Made by a program: the position numbers and the translations under genes
From: Acidimicrobiia bacterium
Lineage (GTDB): Bacteria; Acidobacteriota; Terriglobia; Bryobacterales; Bryobacteraceae
Assembly: GCA_016871315.1 (NCBI GenBank)
Contig: VFZE01000020.1
Location: 1 to 64,000, forward strand
Direction of reading: 5' to 3'
Length of the DNA: 64,000 nucleotides
Shown: positions 559-9,781 of the stretch, in pieces
How the letters are laid out: every line of letters starts with the position of its first letter
How positions within the stretch are numbered: position 1 is the stretch's first letter
The notes under the pieces: model-generated
The model's input: only the letters and a program-made list of their open reading frames with translations
Told to the model about the DNA's origin: nothing
Database searches by the model: none

Positions 559-1989
559 ATGAATCCGCTTCCCGCCGAAAAGATCAACAAAACGCTCTCC
601 AATTCCGGCCTCCAGCTGGCGATCTATGAATCCACCGGCCGGCTCATGGAGAAGCGGCGTAAGGCGCTTGCTTCCCCACTTGCCGCCGATTTCGAAACCT
701 GGCGCGAGCAGGCCAACCGTATCAAACGGCACACGATCGAGAATCTGGATCATTATCTGGAGCAGCTCGAGCAGAATCTCACTCGCAACGGCGGCAAGCT
801 GGTTTGGGCGCGGGACGCCACCGAAGCAGCCGACTTCATCCTTAACCTCGCCAAGGAAAACAACGCTTTTCGCATTGTGAAGTCCAAGTCGATGACCACC
901 GAGGAGATCGACTTGAACGAGCGTCTGGAGAATCACCAGCTGGAAGTGGTCGAAACCGATCTCGGCGAGTACATCATCCAGCTTGCCCGCGAGCGCCCCT
1001 ACCACATCGTCGCTCCCGCCCTTCACAAAACCCGCTACGAAGTGGCCGATCTGTTCACCGAAAAGCTCGGCGTCGAGCGCGAAGTGGTCATCGAAAAGCA
1101 GACCATGATCGCCCGCGCCAGGCTGCGTGAGAAGTTCCTCTCCGCCGACATCGGCATCACCGGAGCCAATTTCCTCATCGCCGATTCCGGCGCCGTCGTC
1201 ATTGTCGAAAACGAAGGCAACGCGCGCCTGTCCAGTTCCGCGCCGCGCATTCAAATCGCCGTCGCCGGTATGGAGAAGCTGATCCCCCGTGCCCAGGACT
1301 TGGCCACATTCCTCAAAGTACTCGGCCGAAGCGCCACTGGCCAGCCGCTCACCGTCTACACCTCGTTCCTATCCGGGCCGCGACGGGCCGGTGAAATCGA
1401 CGGGCCGGAGCAGTTCTACTTGGTTCTAGTCGACAACGGCCGCACTCGCGTCCTTGCCGACCGCGACAAGCGCCAGTCGCTTTACTGCATCCGCTGCGGT
1501 GCTTGCCTCAACCACTGCCCCGTTTATCGTAAAATCGGCGGTCATAATTACCCGTGGGTCTACTCGGGCCCCATCGGCGCCATCATCTCGCCGCAGTTTC
1601 ACGGCGTCACCGAAGATCCATGGCTGCCCTACGCCTCCAGCCTATGCGGCGCCTGCGGCGAGGTCTGTCCTGTCAAGATCGAGATCCCCAAGATCCTGCT
1701 CGCCCTGCGCGAGGACGTCACGAAGGCAAAAAAGCGTGAAGGCGGCGGCGGCCTGGAACGGCTCGCATTCCGTGCTTGGGCCTTCCTCATGCGCCACCCG
1801 AAGCTTTTCGAGATCGCCGGCATGGCCGCGCCGGCCCTCATCTCTGACGGCGGTGGCCGCTGGATCCGATCGCTACCCCGTCCACTCCACGTCGGTCCGA
1901 TCGCACGCTGGCTCAGCCAGCGCGACCTGCCGCCACCGGCCGAGCGGAGCTTCCGCCAGTTGTGGCGCGCGCGCAGGAGGCGAAGCTGA
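559..1989 (+). CDS. lutB: LutB lactate utilization iron-sulfur protein
   Basis: 476 residues, the usual LutB size. The N-terminal two thirds form the LUD domain shared with LutC. Around residues 311-370 there are two ferredoxin-like clusters, CIRCGACLNHCPVY and CGACGEVCPV, each giving four cysteines for a [4Fe-4S] centre. This is the electron-relaying subunit of the LutABC lactate dehydrogenase complex. It starts 3 bases after lutA, and its stop codon shares bases with the lutC start (TGATG), which implies translational coupling. I see no good Shine-Dalgarno sequence before its ATG, consistent with coupling to lutA. Confidence 0.93.
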   Translation: MNPLPAEKINKTLSNSGLQLAIYESTGRLMEKRRKALASPLAADFETWREQANRIKRHTIENLDHYLEQLEQNLTRNGGKLVWARDATEAADFILNLAKENNAFRIVKSKSMTTEEIDLNERLENHQLEVVETDLGEYIIQLARERPYHIVAPALHKTRYEVADLFTEKLGVEREVVIEKQTMIARARLREKFLSADIGITGANFLIADSGAVVIVENEGNARLSSSAPRIQIAVAGMEKLIPRAQDLATFLKVLGRSATGQPLTVYTSFLSGPRRAGEIDGPEQFYLVLVDNGRTRVLADRDKRQSLYCIRCGACLNHCPVYRKIGGHNYPWVYSGPIGAIISPQFHGVTEDPWLPYASSLCGACGEVCPVKIEIPKILLALREDVTKAKKREGGGGLERLAFRAWAFLMRHPKLFEIAGMAAPALISDGGGRWIRSLPRPLHVGPIARWLSQRDLPPPAERSFRQLWRARRRRS

Positions 1990-2621
1990 TGTCCCGCGAC
2001 CACGTCCTGCATAAAGTCCGCACGGCGCTCGGCCGTAGCGCCGGCCAAGCGCTCGAACCCGTGCCGGAGGCGGGCATCGAGATCCCGGAAGTCTTCATCG
2101 AAGCGCGCATCGATCAGTTCTGTGAAGCCTTCGAGGCGCTCAACGGCAAGACCTATCGCGCCGCTTCCCTCGCCGAGGCGCGCGCAACGGTGGAATCTAT
2201 CCTTGCCGGACGCACCGCCATCGCCTCCAACGCTCCGCTGCTGACCGAAATCGGCATCACCACGCTCCCTAAGGTGCAAAGCGGACTCGCCGACCGGCTG
2301 GACCTGCGCGAAGCATGCTCCACCGCCGGCGCCGGCATCACAAGCGCCGATTACGTGCTCGCCGACACGGGTACTTTGGTCATGTTCAGCTCCACCGAAG
2401 AGGCCCGCATGATCTCGCTTCTCCCGCCCGCCCACATAGCCGTCGTACGCCGCGAGCGCTTTCTCACCGGCCTCGACGAGTTGCTCACCCGCGAACCCAT
2501 CCCCTCAAACCGCTCGAGTTCGATGGTCCTCATCACCGGCCCCAGCCGCACCGCCGACATCGAACAGATCCTCGTCCGCGGCGTCCATGGCCCCGGTGAA
2601 ATTCACGCGGTGGTTCTTTAG
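1989..2621 (+). CDS. lutC: LutC lactate utilization protein (LUD domain)
   Basis: The start chosen is the ATG that overlaps the lutB stop (TGATG); it gives 210 residues beginning MSRDHVLHKVRTALG, as typical LutC proteins do. A longer version from an ATG 27 bases upstream is open but lies inside lutB. The LUD domain carries the usual GITSADYVLADTGT and SLLPPAHIAV stretches. LutC is the third subunit of the L-lactate-to-pyruvate system. It ends the operon and converges on the minus-strand transporter gene, 38 bases away. Confidence 0.92.
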   Translation: MSRDHVLHKVRTALGRSAGQALEPVPEAGIEIPEVFIEARIDQFCEAFEALNGKTYRAASLAEARATVESILAGRTAIASNAPLLTEIGITTLPKVQSGLADRLDLREACSTAGAGITSADYVLADTGTLVMFSSTEEARMISLLPPAHIAVVRRERFLTGLDELLTREPIPSNRSSSMVLITGPSRTADIEQILVRGVHGPGEIHAVVL

Positions 2622-2659: not shown

Positions 2660-3901
2660 CTACGCCGTCTGCGCGGTGGCTACAGGCTCCTTCTCCGTCT
2701 TGCCCGGCAGCGGCGCGGCGCGCAACGCCAGCGCCATCAAACCCGCAACCAGCGCCAGTGCGGCGCTTCCATACAACGCCGCGGACCAGCCGCCGAACCG
2801 TTCGGCCAGCATCGCAGCCAGCCCGCCGCCGATAATCGACGCCACACCCTTGGCGCTGTACATGAAGCTGTAGTTCGAGGTCGCGTTCCGTGAGCCGAAG
2901 TAATCGCCGGTGATCGAGGGAAACAGCGCGAAGATCGGACCCCAGGTAAAGTAAGTCAACACCAGGCCTGCCGCGAACAACACACCCGATAGCCGGCCCA
3001 CCTCCAGCAGAAACAGAAGCGAGCCCGCCTGCGCGATAAACGCGATCGCCATCGTCTTCTCGCGCCCAATGCGGTCCGACACCCAGCCCCAGAAGATGCG
3101 TCCGCCTCCGTTAGAGAGCCGGTCCAGCGCCAGCGCCGCTGTCAGTACCGTCAGGCTGAATCCCCACTCCTTCGCCAGCGGTCCGGCGTGCGCCGTAACC
3201 AGCAGCCCGCCGGTCGCCATCATCACGAACATCGCGTACAGCCAATAGAAATGAGGCGTCCGCAGCATCTCCGGCGTCGTCATCTGTTGCGAATTACGGC
3301 GCACAGCCGCCGATAGCGAAGAAGCGCCGCTTCTGCCCGCCATCCAGTCCGCCGGCGGGTTCTTCAGCCACTGCGCCGCCAGTAGGATGATCAAGCCCTG
3401 TACGATGCCTGTGTAATAAAAAGCAGTCCGGTAGGACTCATTCTCGATCAACCACGCGATCAGTGGAATGAACAACGCCGACCCTGACCCGAACCCCGCC
3501 GTAATCAGCCCGGAAGCCAGACCGCGCTTATCGGGAAACCATTTCAGCGCCGTTGCGATCGCGCCACTATAGACAAACGCCGCTCCCACGCCGGCGATCG
3601 CGTAATAAACGTACAGCTGCGTCAGCGTCTCGATCGTCCCCAGCGCCGTCCATCCGATTCCACACAGCACCCCCGCAATGCTCAGGAACACGCGGGGTCC
3701 CATGCGGTCGATCATCCAGCCTTCAATCGGCATGATCCATGTCTCGAAAATGATGAACAGCGTGAAGCCCCATTGAATGTCGGAAAGTTTCCAGCCGGTC
3801 GCTTCCTGCAGCGGCCTGACAAACAGCGTCCAGGCGTACTGCAAGTTCGAGATCATGATCATCGCCATCACCGCGGCGGCCAACTGGATCCATCGATTCA
3901 T
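2660..3901 (-). CDS. MFS transporter, OxlT-like (oxalate/formate antiporter family)
   Basis: 413 residues with the hydrophobicity pattern of a 12-helix major facilitator. The first helix region carries QYAWTLFVRPL, a stretch characteristic of the OxlT family, followed by the MFS loop motif DRMGPR after helix 2 and DRIGREK in the central loop. OxlT of Oxalobacter exchanges oxalate for formate across the inner membrane; relatives carry other mono- or dicarboxylates. Its ATG overlaps the stop of the upstream reductase gene by four bases (ATGA), making it the third gene of an operon with an oxalate-CoA-ligase-like enzyme. That context supports oxalate as substrate, but it is inference; no formate-producing enzyme is visible here, so uniport or a different counter-ion is possible. 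Confidence 0.82.
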   Translation of the reverse strand: MNRWIQLAAAVMAMIMISNLQYAWTLFVRPLQEATGWKLSDIQWGFTLFIIFETWIMPIEGWMIDRMGPRVFLSIAGVLCGIGWTALGTIETLTQLYVYYAIAGVGAAFVYSGAIATALKWFPDKRGLASGLITAGFGSGSALFIPLIAWLIENESYRTAFYYTGIVQGLIILLAAQWLKNPPADWMAGRSGASSLSAAVRRNSQQMTTPEMLRTPHFYWLYAMFVMMATGGLLVTAHAGPLAKEWGFSLTVLTAALALDRLSNGGGRIFWGWVSDRIGREKTMAIAFIAQAGSLLFLLEVGRLSGVLFAAGLVLTYFTWGPIFALFPSITGDYFGSRNATSNYSFMYSAKGVASIIGGGLAAMLAERFGGWSAALYGSAALALVAGLMALALRAAPLPGKTEKEPVATAQTA

Positions 3902-4878
3902 CCCCGGGACTCCTTTCGAACGGCGGCCATCAGTTTCGTCGAAGCATAGACGGCTCGTGTGTGCGGCATCGGGATAGCCATCTTCTCGCCGATCTCAAGC
4001 AGCGCGCCGGCAACCGCCTCCAACTCGAGCGGCCTGCCCGCTTCCAGATCCTGAAGCATCGACGTCTTGTGTTCGCCCACCTTCTCTGCGCCCGCGATGC
4101 GCTGCTCAATCGATACCGGCAGCTCAATGCCCAGCTTCGCCGCTACGCGCTCGGCCTCCTGCATCATCGCCGCCACCACCGCCCGCACTTCCCGGTCCCC
4201 GCACATACGTACCAGCGTCGCCCCTGTCAGCGCCGAAAGCGGATTGAACGAGGCGTTGCCCAGAATCTTCACCCAGATCTCATGCCGGATACGTGTTGTA
4301 ATCGGACATCGCAAACCAGCGGCAATGAGAGCCTGCGAGATTGCACGGCTGCGCTCGGAACGCGACCCGTCCGGCTCGCCGAGCGAAATGCGGTTCCCTT
4401 CCACGTGCTGAATCACCCCAGGCCGCGTCACTTCGGTCGAAAAATAGACAATCGAACCCACAACACTCGTTGCGGGAATCGAAGCGGCAATCCCCCCGCC
4501 CGGGTCCACCGATTCCAGATGCGTCCCGTCCATCGCTCCGCCGAAGCCCTGGAAGAACCACCATGGCACCCCGTTCTGCGTGCTCACCACCGTGGTCTCC
4601 TCGCTCAGCAACGGCTTCAACTGCGGTGCTAGCGCGGGCAATGCATGAGCCTTCACGCCCAGTAGCAACACGTCGCAGCCGCCAATCTCTTCGAGGCTCC
4701 CCACCGCCCGCGGATGAGCCATGAATTCGCCCTCGTCGTTCAGCACCTCAACGCCGCGTTCCTGCATCGCCTTCAGGTGCGGCCCGCGCGCGAACAGCGT
4801 CACCTCGGCGCCTGCGCGCGCCATTCGGGCGCCGATATAGGCGCCGATCGCGCCCGCCCCAATGACGGCAAATCTCAT
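3898..4878 (-). CDS. Ketopantoate reductase-family protein, candidate oxalyl-CoA reductase (PanE2-like)
   Basis: 326 residues. The N-terminal Rossmann motif GAGAIG (residues 7-12) indicates NAD(P)H binding. The catalytic set of the ketopantoate reductase (ApbA/PanE) family is intact: K204, N208 and N212 in WVKILGNASFNPLSA, and S273 with E285 in the SMLQD helix. True PanE makes pantoate for coenzyme A. Here the gene is sandwiched by ATGA overlaps between an oxalate-CoA-ligase-like enzyme and an OxlT-like carrier. In Methylobacterium extorquens a PanE paralog (PanE2) is the oxalyl-CoA reductase that yields glyoxylate. The context therefore favours oxalyl-CoA reduction, but biosynthetic PanE cannot be excluded from sequence alone. 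Confidence 0.8.
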   Translation of the reverse strand: MRFAVIGAGAIGAYIGARMARAGAEVTLFARGPHLKAMQERGVEVLNDEGEFMAHPRAVGSLEEIGGCDVLLLGVKAHALPALAPQLKPLLSEETTVVSTQNGVPWWFFQGFGGAMDGTHLESVDPGGGIAASIPATSVVGSIVYFSTEVTRPGVIQHVEGNRISLGEPDGSRSERSRAISQALIAAGLRCPITTRIRHEIWVKILGNASFNPLSALTGATLVRMCGDREVRAVVAAMMQEAERVAAKLGIELPVSIEQRIAGAEKVGEHKTSMLQDLEAGRPLELEAVAGALLEIGEKMAIPMPHTRAVYASTKLMAAVRKESRG

Positions 4879-6371
4879 CTGGTTTCCGCTGCCAGCGTAG
4901 CCGCGACGTTGCGCCTCTGAATCTTCCCTGTCGCCGTGCGGGGAATCGCCTTCAACACATGGAGCGTCTTCGGCATCTTATAGTCGGCCAGCCGCTCCTT
5001 GCAATAGGCGATGATTTCCGCCTCCGTGGCCGTGGAACCCAGCACCACCGCCGCGGAAACCTCTTCGCCCCACGTCTTGTGCGGCACGCCAAATGCCACC
5101 GCCTCGGCCACCGCCGGATGCGCCAGCAGCACTTCATCGATCTCCACCGGCGAAATCTTCTCCCCGCCGCGATTGATCATCTCCTTCAATCGCCCCGTCA
5201 GTTTCAGGTAGCCTTCCGCGTCGATACTCCCCTGGTCGCCCGTGCGGAACCATCCGTTGGTGAACGACGTCGCATTTGCCTCCGGGTTGTTCTCATATCC
5301 GTCCACGACGTTCGGGCCCTGAATCACCACCTCACCCAGTTGGCCCGGCTCCAGAAGATTGCCCGCCTCATCCATGATCCCGATGCGCAAACCCGTCGCG
5401 CGCCCCACCGTGCCGAACTTGTGTTCCAGCGGCGGCAAGGGATTGGAAGCCATCTGATGCGAGGCTTCCGTCATTCCGTAAGCCTCCAGCACGGGAACGC
5501 CGATGCTCTCCTCCATCTTTTTCGCGGTCTCCACCGGCAGCGGCGCACTGCAGGAACGTATAAAGCGCAGCCGCTCGGCTCCCTGCGGACGCCCCGCACT
5601 CACGCGCGAAAGCGCAAGCTGGTGAATCGTCGGCACCGCCGAATACCAAGTCACCTTGTTTTCGTTCAGCGTGCGCCAGAAACTCAACGCGTTGAACTTG
5701 CCGGGAACGACCAGCGTGCCGCCCGACAGCAGCGTACCCAGCGTCGATGCCACCAGCCCGTGCACATGAAACAGCGGCATCACGCACAAGCTTACATCGG
5801 CAGGCGTCAGCTGATAAGTATCCACCACGTTCTTTGCCGACACCGCCAGCTTCCCGTGCGCCAGAGGCACGCGCTTCGGCCGCCCCGTGCTTCCGCTGGT
5901 ATGCAGCACCAGCGCAACGTCTGCGGCTGACGGCGGCGCGCAACTCCGGCGTGGAGCATCCAGTCGAGCCGCCGCATCGACGGCCAGAACGGGAACATTC
6001 ATCGAGGCGGCCGCAGCCCGCGCCGCCTCCATTCCCTCAGGCGGAACCAGCAGCACGCGCGCCGCCGTGTCCTCCATATAGAACCGGAACTCCTCTTCCC
6101 GGTAGCCGGGGTTCAGCGGCGCCGACGTTCCGGCAACGGAAGCCGCCAGGAACGCCACCACCGCCGGCAAGCCGTTCGGCAGCGCCATCGCGACGCGCTC
6201 CCCGCGCGCGACTCCTGCGCCGGCAAGAGCCTCCGCCATTGCGAAGACTCGTCCGCGCAGATCCGCGTAGCTGATCCTCTCGCCGGTTTCCGGCACAACA
6301 ATCGCGGTGGCATCGTCCGCGCCGCGCTCTAGTAGCTCCCACAACGTCGTGGGCTGGTTGGCTTTCTGCAT
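4875..6371 (-). CDS. AMP-dependent acyl-CoA synthetase, oxalate-CoA ligase-like
   Basis: 498 residues, an ANL-superfamily adenylating enzyme. Visible signatures are the P-loop TSGSTGRPKRVP, LFHVHGL, FIRSCSAPL, EAYGMTEASHQMASNPLPP, GWFRTGDQG, NRGGEKISPVEID, and the C-terminal PRTATGKIQRR holding the catalytic lysine. FIRSCSA.L and MTEASHQM.SNPLP are strongly reminiscent of plant AAE3 and yeast Pcs60, which are oxalyl-CoA synthetases. Expected reaction: oxalate + ATP + CoA to oxalyl-CoA + AMP + PPi. First of three ATGA-coupled genes; an anti-sigma gene ends 25 bases upstream on the same strand. Enzyme class is certain; the oxalate specificity is inferred from motif likeness and neighbours. Confidence 0.85.
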   Translation of the reverse strand: MQKANQPTTLWELLERGADDATAIVVPETGERISYADLRGRVFAMAEALAGAGVARGERVAMALPNGLPAVVAFLAASVAGTSAPLNPGYREEEFRFYMEDTAARVLLVPPEGMEAARAAAASMNVPVLAVDAAARLDAPRRSCAPPSAADVALVLHTSGSTGRPKRVPLAHGKLAVSAKNVVDTYQLTPADVSLCVMPLFHVHGLVASTLGTLLSGGTLVVPGKFNALSFWRTLNENKVTWYSAVPTIHQLALSRVSAGRPQGAERLRFIRSCSAPLPVETAKKMEESIGVPVLEAYGMTEASHQMASNPLPPLEHKFGTVGRATGLRIGIMDEAGNLLEPGQLGEVVIQGPNVVDGYENNPEANATSFTNGWFRTGDQGSIDAEGYLKLTGRLKEMINRGGEKISPVEIDEVLLAHPAVAEAVAFGVPHKTWGEEVSAAVVLGSTATEAEIIAYCKERLADYKMPKTLHVLKAIPRTATGKIQRRNVAATLAAETR

Positions 6372-6396: not shown

Positions 6397-7179
6397 TCAC
6401 GCCTGCAGCTTCTCGCACGCCCACCCTGTCAGAAACCCCAGCCCGATCCCCGCTCCCAGCACGCTCGCGTGGCCCACGCTCAGGTGCGCCGCCTCATGCA
6501 TCGAACAGTTGAATTGCAGCACGATAAGCGATATCAGCGCCCCGGCCCCGCCTATCGTCGCCCCCAGCGTCCCCAGCGCCGGCGGCTCCCCGCGCCGCAC
6601 CGCCAGCCACAGAAGAAACGCGGAAGGAATCGCGAACACGACGCCCGCGCGCGCGCATTTCCACCCGAACACCAGCGATCCCTCCCCGGCCTGCCACGGA
6701 AACAGAAGCATGAACTCCAGCAGAAACGCTCCCACGAGAACCCCCAGCATCGCCGCCGGCGACCACCGGTAACGGCTTCCCGGAGAGATCTGCCAGCTCA
6801 CCGTGGCCGCCAGAGCCGCCGCCGCCAGCCCTGTCAGCAGCAGGAAACCGGCCAGTTGCAGTGCACTCATCCCTTTCATCGCGCTCATGCCCAGCGCTCC
6901 CAGCAGCGCCGCCGTCACCAGCAGGGAAACGGCCAGGAAACGCAGGAACGCCATTGTGGAGGAGGCCACCGGCGTTACCGGCTTCAGGTCCGCTGCCAGA
7001 TGGGATGCCACACGGCTCACCAGCGGCGCCGGCGGGACAACCTCGGCCTCTGGTACGGCCATCGCTTTATGCAGCTTCCGGCAGCGCGGGCACACAACCA
7101 AATGCAGGCGCAGCGCCTCCGGCATTGCACCGCTAGAGCCCCGGTCCAAGAACTCATCGAGTTGCCGGCAGTTACCCAT
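6397..7179 (-). CDS. Membrane anti-sigma factor: zinc-finger N-terminus fused to NrsF/DUF1109-like six-helix domain
   Basis: 260 residues. Residues 26-33 read HLVVCPRC, the H-x3-C-x2-C motif of ZAS-type anti-sigma factors, preceded by C4. From about residue 78 to the end lie roughly six transmembrane helices. Two conserved-looking cysteines, C175 (FGWKC) and C225 (FNCSMHEAAH), match the placement of the paired cysteines in NrsF/DUF1109 membrane anti-sigma factors. It starts 5 bases after the ECF sigma gene, so it is almost certainly its cognate anti-sigma factor, holding the sigma at the inner membrane. Signal and targets are unknown. The combination of a ZAS motif and the NrsF-like membrane domain is my reading, not a database result. 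Confidence 0.72.
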   Translation of the reverse strand: MGNCRQLDEFLDRGSSGAMPEALRLHLVVCPRCRKLHKAMAVPEAEVVPPAPLVSRVASHLAADLKPVTPVASSTMAFLRFLAVSLLVTAALLGALGMSAMKGMSALQLAGFLLLTGLAAAALAATVSWQISPGSRYRWSPAAMLGVLVGAFLLEFMLLFPWQAGEGSLVFGWKCARAGVVFAIPSAFLLWLAVRRGEPPALGTLGATIGGAGALISLIVLQFNCSMHEAAHLSVGHASVLGAGIGLGFLTGWACEKLQA

Positions 7180-7184
7180 TCCGC

Positions 7185-7838
7185 CTACTCGCTATCGTCC
7201 TTTCTGTCGTTCAGGATCCGCCGCAGCTTCGCGTAGGCGCGATGAGCCTTCTGCTTCACCGATCCAACCGTGCAACTGGTGGCGCGCGCCACTTCCTCAA
7301 GCGTCATGCCGGAAACCTTCAACATAATAATTACTTCGCGCTGGCTGTCGGGCAACTCCGCCAGCATATTTTCGAAATTTTCCCTCGGCGCCAGCCGTGG
7401 CTGCTCGGTCGTGTGCAGCCCTTCGGGAATCGAATCCATCAGCGCCTCCCGCGACTTCCGCCGGATCCGCTTGCGCAGCGCATCCAGCCGCGTGTGCCGC
7501 GCGATCGCGAACACCCATGGCATCAGCGGCTCCCCACGCCGGAAGCTGTGCCGCGCCCGGTGAATGCGCACCCAGCAATCCTGCAGCAGATCCTCGGCCC
7601 GGCCAACATCGTGCGTGTAGCTCAGAAAAAACCGGAATAGAATCGGCGATACCCGCCCCACCAGTTCCTCGGCTGCCTCGGCTTCGGCGTCCTGGTAACG
7701 CTCCATCAGTAGACTCAGTTCGCCTTGCTCCTCGGAGCCGCCGCTTCCGGGAGAATCCGCGCGGGAAGGCTTGGACGCCATGCTCCATTTCAATCTACCA
7801 CCGGTGCTTTCTCTCCATACAGAGTTCGGCGCTGGCAT
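7185..7838 (-). CDS. ECF (sigma-70 family, group IV) RNA polymerase sigma factor
   Basis: 217 residues from the first ATG; a shorter start about 19 codons in (MASKPSR) is equally possible, as no clear Shine-Dalgarno sequence decides. The sigma2 region is visible as LLQDCWVRIHRARHSFRRG followed by PWVFAIARHTRLDALRK. The sigma4 helix-turn-helix is visible as LPDSQREVIIMLKVSGMTLEEVARATSCTVGSVKQ. No sigma3 or N-terminal regulatory region exists, as expected for ECF sigmas. It sits 5 bases before its anti-sigma gene. The divergent neighbour is a LysR gene, and the co-directional downstream genes are the oxalate-like operon, which could be a target. Confidence 0.9.
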   Translation of the reverse strand: MPAPNSVWRESTGGRLKWSMASKPSRADSPGSGGSEEQGELSLLMERYQDAEAEAAEELVGRVSPILFRFFLSYTHDVGRAEDLLQDCWVRIHRARHSFRRGEPLMPWVFAIARHTRLDALRKRIRRKSREALMDSIPEGLHTTEQPRLAPRENFENMLAELPDSQREVIIMLKVSGMTLEEVARATSCTVGSVKQKAHRAYAKLRRILNDRKDDSE

Positions 7839-7931: not shown

Positions 7932-8867
7932 GTGAATCTGGACCATCTCCAGCTTTTCCGTGACATTGCTCAGGCGCGCAGTATCAGCAAGGCCGCGCAG
8001 GCTAACGGGATCAGCCAATCAGCTGCCAGCCAGCATCTGCAGGAGCTGGAGAAGAGCCTGCAAGTCACGTTGGTGGACCGCAGCACCCGCCCGCTCACTC
8101 TTACCGAGGCCGGTAAACTCTACGCCGAGTACTGCCGCGATGTCCTGCGCCGCCGCAAGGAATTCGACGTCGCGCTGGAAAAGATTAAAGGCCGTCTGGA
8201 AGGAACCGTGCGCGTTGCCTCCATCTATTCGGTGGGCCTGTCGGAGATGTCCCGCCTGGAGGAGGACTTCGCCATTCGTTGCCCCGGCGCCGAACTGTGG
8301 GTCGACTACCTGCGCCCTGAAAAAGTCTATCAGTACGTTCAGAGCGACCGCGCCGACCTCGGCCTGGTCAGCTACCCGGAACCCAACAAGGAAATCAAAG
8401 CGATTGCCTGGCGCGAAGAGACCATGGTGGTTGCCGTGGCGCCAACTCATCGCCTGGCCGGCTTCGAAGTGCTTTCCCCCGCGCAACTGGAAGGGGAAAG
8501 CTTCATCGGTTTTGATGAAGACCTGCCCATCAGCCGCGAGGTCGACCGCTTCCTCCGCGAAGCCGGAGTCGAAGTGGAGCTCGTCATGCATTTCGACAAT
8601 ATTCAAATGATGAAAGAGGCCGTCGCGCTAGGCTCCGGCATCAGCATTCTGCCGGAGCGCATCCTGCGCTCCGATATCTCGCAGGGCCGCTTGAAGGCGA
8701 TCCCGATGGAGGACCCTGGCCTCTCCCGTCCCCTCGGCATCCTGCATCTAAGAAGGAAAAAGTTCAACCGCGCCACACAGGCGTTTCTCGATCTCTTAAT
8801 GGAGGAACCGGCCCAGCCGCCGCAATCATGGCCCGCATCGTCATCCCCGACGACTTCCCTCAGGTAA
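7932..8867 (+). CDS. LysR-family transcriptional regulator
   Basis: 311 residues starting at GTG; an in-frame stop lies 15 bases upstream, so this is the longest credible start. Residues 1-60 form the winged helix-turn-helix (LQLFRDIAQARSISKAA, then QSAASQHLQELEKSL). The rest is a periplasmic-binding-like effector domain of normal length. The final 40 bases overlap the start of the hydroxyacid dehydrogenase gene, so the two are probably co-transcribed. LysR proteins commonly control the adjacent divergent operon; here that is the ECF/anti-sigma/oxalate-like set. The effector is unknown; oxalate, glyoxylate or another small acid would fit the context. Confidence 0.88.
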   Translation: MNLDHLQLFRDIAQARSISKAAQANGISQSAASQHLQELEKSLQVTLVDRSTRPLTLTEAGKLYAEYCRDVLRRRKEFDVALEKIKGRLEGTVRVASIYSVGLSEMSRLEEDFAIRCPGAELWVDYLRPEKVYQYVQSDRADLGLVSYPEPNKEIKAIAWREETMVVAVAPTHRLAGFEVLSPAQLEGESFIGFDEDLPISREVDRFLREAGVEVELVMHFDNIQMMKEAVALGSGISILPERILRSDISQGRLKAIPMEDPGLSRPLGILHLRRKKFNRATQAFLDLLMEEPAQPPQSWPASSSPTTSLR

Positions 8868-9781
8868 TGGCACCCAGCCCTTCTTACCGGCGCTTTGCCG
8901 TGGAAAGGCAGGTGAACTATTTCGACTCGCTTCCCGGCAGTGAAGACCGGCTCATCGAGCGTATCCAGAACGCAGAGGTCGTGATCAACATCCGCTCCTC
9001 CTCCAAGTTCACCGCGCCTGTGCTCGAAAGCTGCCCCTCACTGCGGCTGCTCTCTCTTTGGGGTACCGGCACGGACAACGTCGATCTCGCCTCTGCCTCG
9101 CGTCTCGGGATCACCGTCACCAACACCCCGGCCGTGGCGGCCGTCTCCATCGCCGAACATTGCCTGGCGCTAATGCTCGCCGTCGCCCGGCGCATTCCGC
9201 AAATCGACAGCGAAACGCGTGGCGGCGCCTGGCCGCGCGGCCAAACCACGCAAATGTCCGGCAAGACGCTCGGCGTTATCGGCCTCGGAGCCATCGGTTC
9301 CCGCTTCGCGCGGCTCGGTGAAGCGGTCGGCATGAAGGTCAACTGCTGGACCATGCACCCCGATACCAAGCCAGGCTTCACGCTGGTTCCGCTGGAATAT
9401 CTGCTCGCCGAGAGCGATGTCGTCAGCCTCCACTTGCGCCTCAGCGCCGATACACACCGCTTTCTCAGCCGCGCCCGGCTGGCGCAAATGAAGTCCTCCG
9501 CCATCCTCATCAACACCGCCCGCGGCGCCATCGTCGACGAGGCCGCTCTCGTCGAAGCTCTTCAGGAGAAGCGGCTGGCCGGCGCCGGCCTCGACGTCTT
9601 CGAGGTCGAGCCTCTGCCCGCAGGCCACGCCCTCACCAAACTCGACAACGTCGTCCTCAGCCCGCACTCGGCCGGAGTTACGCCGGAGGCGCTCGAAGCC
9701 GGACTCGCCTTGGCTCTGGACAATGTCGAATCTTTCCTCGCCGGCAAGCCCCAGCACGTCGTGGCCGCCCCGGCTGCCTAG
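8828..9781 (+). CDS. D-isomer-specific 2-hydroxyacid dehydrogenase (glyoxylate/hydroxypyruvate reductase-like)
   Basis: 317 residues. The NAD(P) fold motif is GLGAIGSRFARLG in the middle of the protein. The catalytic triad of the family is visible: Arg in NTARGAIVDEA, Glu in DVFEVEPLP and His in LSPHSAG. These enzymes interconvert 2-oxoacids and D-2-hydroxyacids, for example glyoxylate with glycolate, hydroxypyruvate with D-glycerate, or 3-phosphoglycerate oxidation. There is no ACT domain, so serine biosynthesis is less likely. The start overlaps the LysR gene by 40 bases. Next to a putative oxalate-to-glyoxylate operon, a glyoxylate reductase role is attractive but unproven. Confidence 0.87.
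   Translation: MARIVIPDDFPQVMAPSPSYRRFAVERQVNYFDSLPGSEDRLIERIQNAEVVINIRSSSKFTAPVLESCPSLRLLSLWGTGTDNVDLASASRLGITVTNTPAVAAVSIAEHCLALMLAVARRIPQIDSETRGGAWPRGQTTQMSGKTLGVIGLGAIGSRFARLGEAVGMKVNCWTMHPDTKPGFTLVPLEYLLAESDVVSLHLRLSADTHRFLSRARLAQMKSSAILINTARGAIVDEAALVEALQEKRLAGAGLDVFEVEPLPAGHALTKLDNVVLSPHSAGVTPEALEAGLALALDNVESFLAGKPQHVVAAPAA

Follow-up and report, generated by a model that had tools for sequence, protein, structure and literature searches.

A predicted oxalate-to-glyoxylate operon of ligase, reductase and OxlT-type carrier genes in a member of the Bryobacteraceae

The locus described here lies in a 64,000-nucleotide stretch of DNA (the window; positions 1 to 64,000 of contig VFZE01000020.1, assembly GCA_016871315.1) from a bacterium of the family Bryobacteraceae, phylum Acidobacteriota. 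It contains three genes, for an acyl-CoA ligase of the oxalyl-CoA synthetase (OCS) type, a PanE-fold reductase and a carrier of the OxlT family within the major facilitator superfamily (MFS) (Table 1). Among the open reading frames (ORFs) of the window, all three are open on the minus strand and each has an ATG start. Both junctions read ATGA on the minus-strand DNA, and the ligase, reductase and carrier genes are joined by two 4-bp overlaps. A preliminary description of the locus had given this arrangement of three minus-strand genes with two ATGA overlaps, and it is borne out by the ORF coordinates and the junction DNA.

Table 1. Coordinates of the features of the locus within the window.
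Feature	Position	Strand	Length	Basis
Oxalyl-CoA synthetase-type acyl-CoA ligase, AAE3/Pcs60 clade	4875..6371	-	498 aa	Solved relatives, tree, motifs
PanE-fold reductase, oxalyl-CoA reductase type	3898..4878	-	326 aa	NF005089, active site, tree, linkage
OxlT-family MFS carrier	2660..3901	-	413 aa	TIGR04259, OxlT 8hpj, R268/K351
ATGA overlap, ligase stop / reductase start	4875..4878	-	4 bp	
ATGA overlap, reductase stop / carrier start	3898..3901	-	4 bp	
LutB/LldF-type lactate oxidation gene and probable LutC neighbour	559-2621	+		LutB/LldF 485 bits, cut-off 445

The best matches of the window ligase among the sequences of solved structures are 6qjz, 5ie0 and 8aff (442, 436 and 417 bits). All three are OCS enzymes, and the next enzyme type reaches 249 bits. 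Identity to the solved OCS is 48-52% over the aligned parts, compared with 38% for two malonyl-CoA synthases. In a 53-protein tree, from which the partial ligase of locus L175 was left out, the window ligase groups with same-phylum, proteobacterial, plant and yeast enzymes in a clade of 41 rows (support 100/99) that contains 6qjz, 5ie0 and 8aff (the last in part). Malonyl-CoA synthases, FadD, CaiC, MenE and six same-phylum ligases of 35-39% identity fall outside this clade, and the outgroup branches are long. The motifs PLFHVHGL, RFIRSCSA.L and MTEASH.M.SNPLP, taken from the solved OCS, are all found in the window ligase, in which FIRSCSAPL and MTEASHQMASNPLP are present. These ligase motifs are common to the plant and yeast enzymes. 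RFIRSCSA.L varies in proteobacterial homologues: its regular expression is without a match in many rows, including most of the proteobacterial ones, and the corresponding stretch differs in the Methylobacterium bullatum ligase.

The motifs, the 442-bit match to a solved structure and the 100/99 clade agree with the earlier assignment of the ligase to the AAE3/Pcs60 type of oxalate-CoA ligases, and the protein groups with characterised OCS rather than with malonyl-CoA synthases or FadD. A malonyl-CoA synthase or fatty-acid ligase identity is rejected on the solved-structure scores and the tree; the best NCBIfam name of the protein, FadD7, scores 475 bits, under its cut-off of 650. The predicted reaction would be the conversion of oxalate, ATP and CoA to oxalyl-CoA, AMP and pyrophosphate. 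A second OCS-clade ligase of the same genome (G000:C12:22840-24279; L070:6583-8298) follows a DegT/PseC-like sugar aminotransferase gene and is without a reductase.

The window reductase scores 431 bits with the model NF005089 (cut-off 223). Its residues K204, N208, S273 and E285 align with K176, N180, S244 and E256 of E. coli PanE, in agreement with the intact active site that had been read from the sequence. In a tree of 54 proteins, the window reductase is placed in a same-phylum clade of 12 rows (99/100), and the Cupriavidus ApbA2-type and Methylobacterium-type reductases form a separate clade of 25 rows (98/96). Methylobacterium extorquens PanE2 and Cupriavidus necator ApbA2 are themselves not among the rows, and relatives stand in for both; the tree is also without the reductase of the own-family genome G300 (L181), which reads in two pieces. 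A larger group of 52 rows (96/81) includes the window reductase, and E. coli PanE and the second PanE-like protein of the genome fall outside it on long branches. On this tree, the window reductase is related to, and not nested in, the clade of characterised oxalyl-CoA reductase types.

The preliminary description had proposed a comparison of the reductase with biosynthetic PanE and with PanE2, and a search of the genome for a second panE. The protein does not group with E. coli PanE, and it is not the sole PanE-like copy, as a second is present at G000:C20:86336-87202. Identity as a biosynthetic PanE is rejected on this second gene, the residue alignment and the tree. The second copy has L at the position of E. 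coli N180, and a housekeeping PanE role is therefore not proven for it. The reductase stands apart from biosynthetic PanE and is not nested with the Cupriavidus and Methylobacterium types. From its family and linkage, the reductase is predicted to convert oxalyl-CoA and NAD(P)H to glyoxylate and CoA. An NG-P-W-W block was tried as a mark of oxalyl-CoA reductases and rejected: it is present in three paralogs of 36-40% identity, and the related row L109 is without it by regular expression. The short stretches around these paralogs showed no oxalate neighbours. Another related clade of reductases, with 43-49% identity, comes from a different family of the same order (L176, L177, L179, L182, L183, L187 and L188), and neither a ligase nor an OxlT was found in the stretches fetched for it.

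The carrier scores 417.1 bits with the OxlT model TIGR04259 (cut-off 335). Its best solved relative is OxlT 8hpj with 282 bits, compared with 169 bits for the lactate carrier 6g9x. The substrate-binding residues of OxlT, Arg272 and Lys355 in the chain numbering of 8hpj, have aligned counterparts in R268 and K351 of the carrier. The motif QYAWTLFVRPL is present. The earlier naming of an OxlT-type carrier is upheld by TIGR04259, by 8hpj and by the retained Arg and Lys, and is weakened by a lactate-carrier cut-off that the protein also passes. On this evidence, the carrier probably serves oxalate uptake. By their scores, the family matches of the three genes are far beyond chance: the ligase has 442 against 249 bits, and the reductase and the carrier exceed their cut-offs.

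A ligase search of 297 same-phylum genomes, the own genome included, gave a match at E 1e-90 or better in 29. The order of ligase and reductase genes is kept in other genomes: 13 other genomes of the phylum have a close ligase, of 57-68% identity, and in all 13 a reductase adjoins it; an OxlT-type gene directly follows the reductase in five of these (L051, L052, L054, L055 and L063). Surroundings were also fetched for eight further ligases of 46-51% identity, the second copy of the own genome included. An adjacent reductase was found for one (L065), and the contigs of two others are no longer than 5 kb. Within the own family, the reductase occurs in four of 37 genomes, and in all four the ligase, reductase and carrier are found together (the G300 reductase in two pieces).

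Other genes accompany the pair in individual genomes. A malate-synthase-like gene in L052 has its end 9 bp ahead of the ligase ORF; its product scores 126 bits for the TIM-barrel domain and 194 for malate synthase A (cut-off 594). In L062, an aminotransferase follows the reductase, and its best named families reach 204 (cut-off 600) and 196 bits (cut-off 650). A gene resembling MhpD or 2-keto-4-pentenoate hydratase is located downstream of the reductase or the carrier in six of the 13 genomes (L052, L054, L055, L058, L061 and L063), and the L052 copy matches 2wqt with 60 bits. We know of no role in oxalate use for MhpD-like or FAH-family genes.

The ligase-reductase pair is not special to the source phylum and is common in other bacteria. 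Of 592 relatives of the M. bullatum reductase in named genomes, the 80 best were followed to their loci, a set biased to the kin of the query and with many short stretches. An OCS is encoded in 32 of these 80 stretches, in 21 directly adjacent to the reductase and on the same strand; an OxlT occurs in 17 and a Frc-type CoA-transferase in 22. An FAH-family gene is seen in 48 of the 80 loci. Forty-nine of the 79 genomes in the M. oxalidis genus contain a single such reductase, and the ligase adjoins it in 37 of the 48 genomes examined, a count that leaves out G416, where the reductase is a partial piece. The pair of the Rhodobacteraceae bacterium SC52 has a 4-bp overlap.

Genes for CoA transfer and decarboxylation also occur near the related reductases. 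A true Frc (formyl-CoA transferase) gene is found near that of Cupriavidus metallidurans (623 bits, cut-off 504), and another near that of Nonomuraea (676 bits). A likely Oxc (oxalyl-CoA decarboxylase) is present in 11 of the 80 loci, with less than 30% identity to the thiamine diphosphate (ThDP) enzyme of Nonomuraea (L017). That of L091, which was tested, scores 969 bits against a cut-off of 739, and four more likely Oxc fall in one clade with it. In four of the 80 loci, hits of 55% or more to the Nonomuraea enzyme represent a 2-hydroxyacyl-CoA-lyase-like type. The Nonomuraea ThDP gene itself, near the reductase, reaches 258 bits against the Oxc cut-off of 739 and is of this lyase-like type; that of C. 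metallidurans reaches 226 bits, and its best solved relatives are 2-hydroxyacyl-CoA lyases. Enzymes of this kind stand beside Frc-type genes and the reductase in L016:12540-14252, L017:5927-7660, L104, L114 and L131, and those of L016, L017 and L104 are well under the Oxc cut-off. A 2-hydroxyacyl-CoA-lyase-like ThDP enzyme beside Frc is possibly a second kind of oxalyl-CoA decarboxylase.

The own genome is 98.3% complete, so that single absences are likely, not certain. No Oxc was found over the cut-off, the best match having 268 bits against 739. None of its four CoA-transferase III genes exceeds the Frc or CoA:oxalate cut-offs; three score under them, and the fourth gave no match at 1e-40. 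No oxalate decarboxylase reaches its cut-off (21 bits against 254). Four POR_N proteins were considered as an oxalate oxidoreductase and rejected, as three are 23-27% identical to the alpha protein of L056, described below, and the fourth gave no match. The genome gave no match to isocitrate lyase, and none of the ThDP enzymes that the Oxc model picked up reaches the glyoxylate carboligase cut-off, no separate search having been made for that family.

The best Oxc match of the genome, L003 (G000:C32:60806-62467; L003:1450-3111), is a ThDP enzyme of the Oxc/2-hydroxyacyl-CoA lyase superfamily. Its solved relatives score 263 bits and less, it is 28-32% identical to Oxc and to the frc-linked type, and it is unresolved in the tree. 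The gene adjoins one for a TPR protein. L003 may have a decarboxylating role, and the absence of a decarboxylase is likely and not certain. The preliminary claim of a route without oxc and frc stands in that neither is found over its cut-off, nor is an oxalate decarboxylase, and is softened by this enzyme where it extends to decarboxylases in general. The genome does encode malate synthase A (836 bits, cut-off 594), in L192:7346-11271 (G000:C1), where the gene has a 1-base overlap with a seemingly fused glycine C-acetyltransferase and threonine-dehydrogenase-like gene. A malate synthase without isocitrate lyase would need another source of glyoxylate, and the operon would be one.

The three genes are considered likely to be a single operon with coupled translation, by which oxalate, as a carbon co-substrate, is turned into glyoxylate. 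Oxalate would be imported by the OxlT-type carrier and activated by the ligase to oxalyl-CoA at the expense of ATP. In the next step, the PanE-fold reductase would use NAD(P)H to reduce oxalyl-CoA to glyoxylate, and CoA would be freed. Glyoxylate would enter central metabolism, most plausibly through malate synthase A, which would yield malate in this genome. The import, activation and reduction of oxalate proposed in the preliminary description are supported, as predicted activities, by the ligase clade, the family and tree of the reductase, the OxlT model and the linkage. The genome probably gains little or no energy from oxalate, since it has no recognised Oxc, Frc, oxalate decarboxylase or oxalate oxidoreductase. 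The route would cost ATP and reducing power with no recognised energy branch, which suggests that it serves co-assimilation, the salvage of carbon or detoxification while another substrate supports growth.

Relatives of oxalate oxidoreductase accompany the pair in two same-phylum genomes, in both cases with an OxlT after or near it (L056:927-9604; L057 and L191). Oxalate oxidoreductase is otherwise known from acetogens. In L056 (genome G265), the genes that come after the ligase-reductase pair on its strand encode a GntR-type regulator, an Fe-S protein, two oxalate-oxidoreductase-like proteins and an OxlT (483 bits, cut-off 335). Among solved relatives, the alpha gene scores 323 bits with oxalate oxidoreductase alpha compared with 211 for pyruvate:ferredoxin oxidoreductase (PFOR), and the beta gene 278 with oxalate oxidoreductase beta compared with 197 for PFOR. 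In G084, homologues of the L056 alpha and beta genes, known by that homology, are located about 6-7 kb from the ligase-reductase pair, and an OxlT about 10 kb from it.

A broader proposal, of an oxalate system in this phylum that has as yet no name, may be built on these loci. Oxalate carbon would be salvaged as glyoxylate by an ATP-driven ligase-reductase module, with no classical Oxc/Frc in the own genome, and some relatives would have the module joined to an oxalate oxidoreductase of the acetogen type. There, one part of the oxalate would give CO2 and low-potential electrons by oxidation and another part would be reduced to glyoxylate, in an oxalate disproportionation. In the own genome, glyoxylate would feed malate synthase without isocitrate lyase, and elsewhere a malate-synthase-like or aminotransferase gene adjoins the pair. 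As a whole, this proposal is tentative and rather doubtful. The less than certain absence of an oxalyl-CoA decarboxylase counts against it.

The LutB/LldF-type lactate oxidation gene and its neighbour, which we take to be LutC (only weak family matches), are convergent with the carrier gene and lie 38 bp from its 3′ end. At the other end, genes for a sigma factor and an NrsF-like regulator (6397-7838), on the same strand as the operon, end 25 bp before the ligase start and could be co-transcribed with it. These two genes are not supported as parts of the system, nor are the LysR and 2-hydroxyacid dehydrogenase genes (7932-9781); no homologue of either set was found in the loci of relatives that were scanned.

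Several observations weigh against the operon as a route from oxalate to glyoxylate. An OxlT does not directly follow the reductase in eight of the 13 same-phylum operons. The operon is patchy within the family (four of 37 genomes) and absent from the one genome of the same genus (86% complete). The window reductase stands beside, not inside, the clade with ApbA2- and Methylobacterium-type proteins, and its identity is 42% with the ApbA2-type protein of C. metallidurans and 50% with the reductase of M. bullatum. The three paralogs of 36-40% identity join the 25-row clade (88/72), nearer to it than the window reductase, and they too have the NG-P-W-W block. Four ligase-linked same-phylum reductases (L059, L060, L062 and L175) branch unresolved at the base. 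OCS-clade ligases without a linked reductase exist, one of them in the own genome. For this reason, clade membership alone is no proof of an oxalate role, and the OCS clade may hold several substrates. The carrier also exceeds the cut-off of the SfMCT L-lactate model (349.5 against 320 bits), and a lactate-oxidation gene adjoins it convergently.

The last two points make a lactate role the main rival for the third gene, which would then be a lactate (monocarboxylate) carrier for the adjacent lactate-oxidation genes. This is unlikely, as the TIGR04259 score is 68 bits above that of SfMCT, the best solved relative is OxlT (282 against 169 bits) and the carrier gene overlaps that of the reductase by ATGA. 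A carrier also follows the pair in five of the 13 genomes with no LutB/LutC homologue seen there, in a scan that did not extend to two more own-family loci with the carrier, L174 and L181. A different substrate might also be proposed for the first two enzymes, which would then form a module leading from the acyl-CoA of another small acid to its aldehyde (or a related conversion). The ligases without a reductase, with the own-genome copy beside a PseC-like sugar aminotransferase, fit this explanation, as do the MhpD-like hydratase after the reductase or carrier in six of the 13 operons and the placement of the reductase outside the clade with the characterised types. The explanation is distinctly unlikely in view of the OxlT-type carriers in the window and five of 13 loci, the oxalate-oxidoreductase-like genes of L056, the true Frc genes by related reductases and the motifs of solved OCS kept in the window ligase.

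It is very unlikely that the enzymes work in reverse, from glyoxylate through oxalyl-CoA to oxalate (with the ligase reversed or an esterase), and that the OxlT-type carrier exports oxalate, for example in mineral weathering. Carriers of the OxlT family are exchangers, which would allow export; against it, pyrophosphate hydrolysis normally pulls AMP-forming ligases forward. For M. extorquens (PMC9485241) and C. necator (PMC7486775), published accounts call the reaction of the reductase reversible. The presence of genes like those of oxalate oxidoreductase, an oxalate consumer, after the pair in L056 argues against the reverse route, and no isocitrate lyase was found in the own genome to supply glyoxylate. 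A housekeeping ketopantoate reductase placed beside the ligase by accident is barely credible: the protein has the PanE fold, and the curated models are named 2-dehydropantoate 2-reductase, but its linkage to the ligase is conserved, the genome has a second PanE-like gene (though with L at the N180 position) and the tree places it apart from E. coli PanE (on a very long branch in that row). The conversion of imported oxalate to glyoxylate remains the preferred explanation of the operon.

In the open-access literature, searched without Schneider et al. 2012, no paper was found that describes a bacterial oxalyl-CoA synthetase or an operon of one with the reductase. The preliminary remark was that no described acidobacterial operon of this exact make-up was known; the novelty is smaller than it implied, as the pair is widespread in Proteobacteria. 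The main novelty is the conserved coupling of ligase and reductase, in the own genome with neither Oxc nor Frc recognised, and the joining of this pair to oxalate oxidoreductase in some relatives. If the proposed route is true, the lineage would join the oxalate cycle by a carbon-saving path, and CoA transfer would not be the sole way for bacteria to activate oxalate. A survey of oxalate-eating bacteria from 2023 takes oxc, frc, oxdC and oxlT as its markers and also names an oxalate CoA-transferase without a known gene (PMC10192776). Users of the ligase, reductase and carrier alone would show at most one of these markers.

Classical oxalotrophy by Oxc and Frc with OxlT shares the OxlT-family carrier and the oxalyl-CoA intermediate with the window, whereas no Oxc or Frc is found over its cut-off in the own genome. 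Relatives of the alpha and beta proteins of the Moorella oxalate oxidoreductase are encoded after the pair in L056, with homologues of those in G084, and were not recognised in the own genome. Plant AAE3 and yeast Pcs60 (FAT2) belong to the same ligase clade (100/99) and share its motifs, but are eukaryotic. They start the breakdown of oxalate and are not known to stand in an operon with a reductase. In C. necator, oxalate is activated by CoA transfer. The PanE2/ApbA2 route resembles that of the window in its PanE-fold reductase, the conversion of oxalyl-CoA to glyoxylate and the use of oxalate carbon, and OxlT-type carriers occur near some relatives. It differs in that the window has an ATP-dependent ligase coupled to the reductase, no frc or oxc over the cut-off in its genome and a separate reductase clade. 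As oxalyl-CoA reductases, C. necator ApbA2, whose gene is located near frc-oxc, has genetic support (PMC7486775) and M. extorquens PanE2 enzymatic support (PMC9485241). In the genus of M. oxalidis, many genomes have the ligase beside the reductase, as in the window. A man-made counterpart is a synthetic yeast pathway for glycolic acid, which leads to glyoxylate by oxaloacetase, the oxalyl-CoA synthetase FAT2 and panE2 (PMC12686821). It combines the same pair of functions that is predicted for the window, where they lie in a natural operon with its own carrier, and bacterial ligase-reductase pairs are candidates for such a yeast-built pathway from oxalate to glyoxylate.

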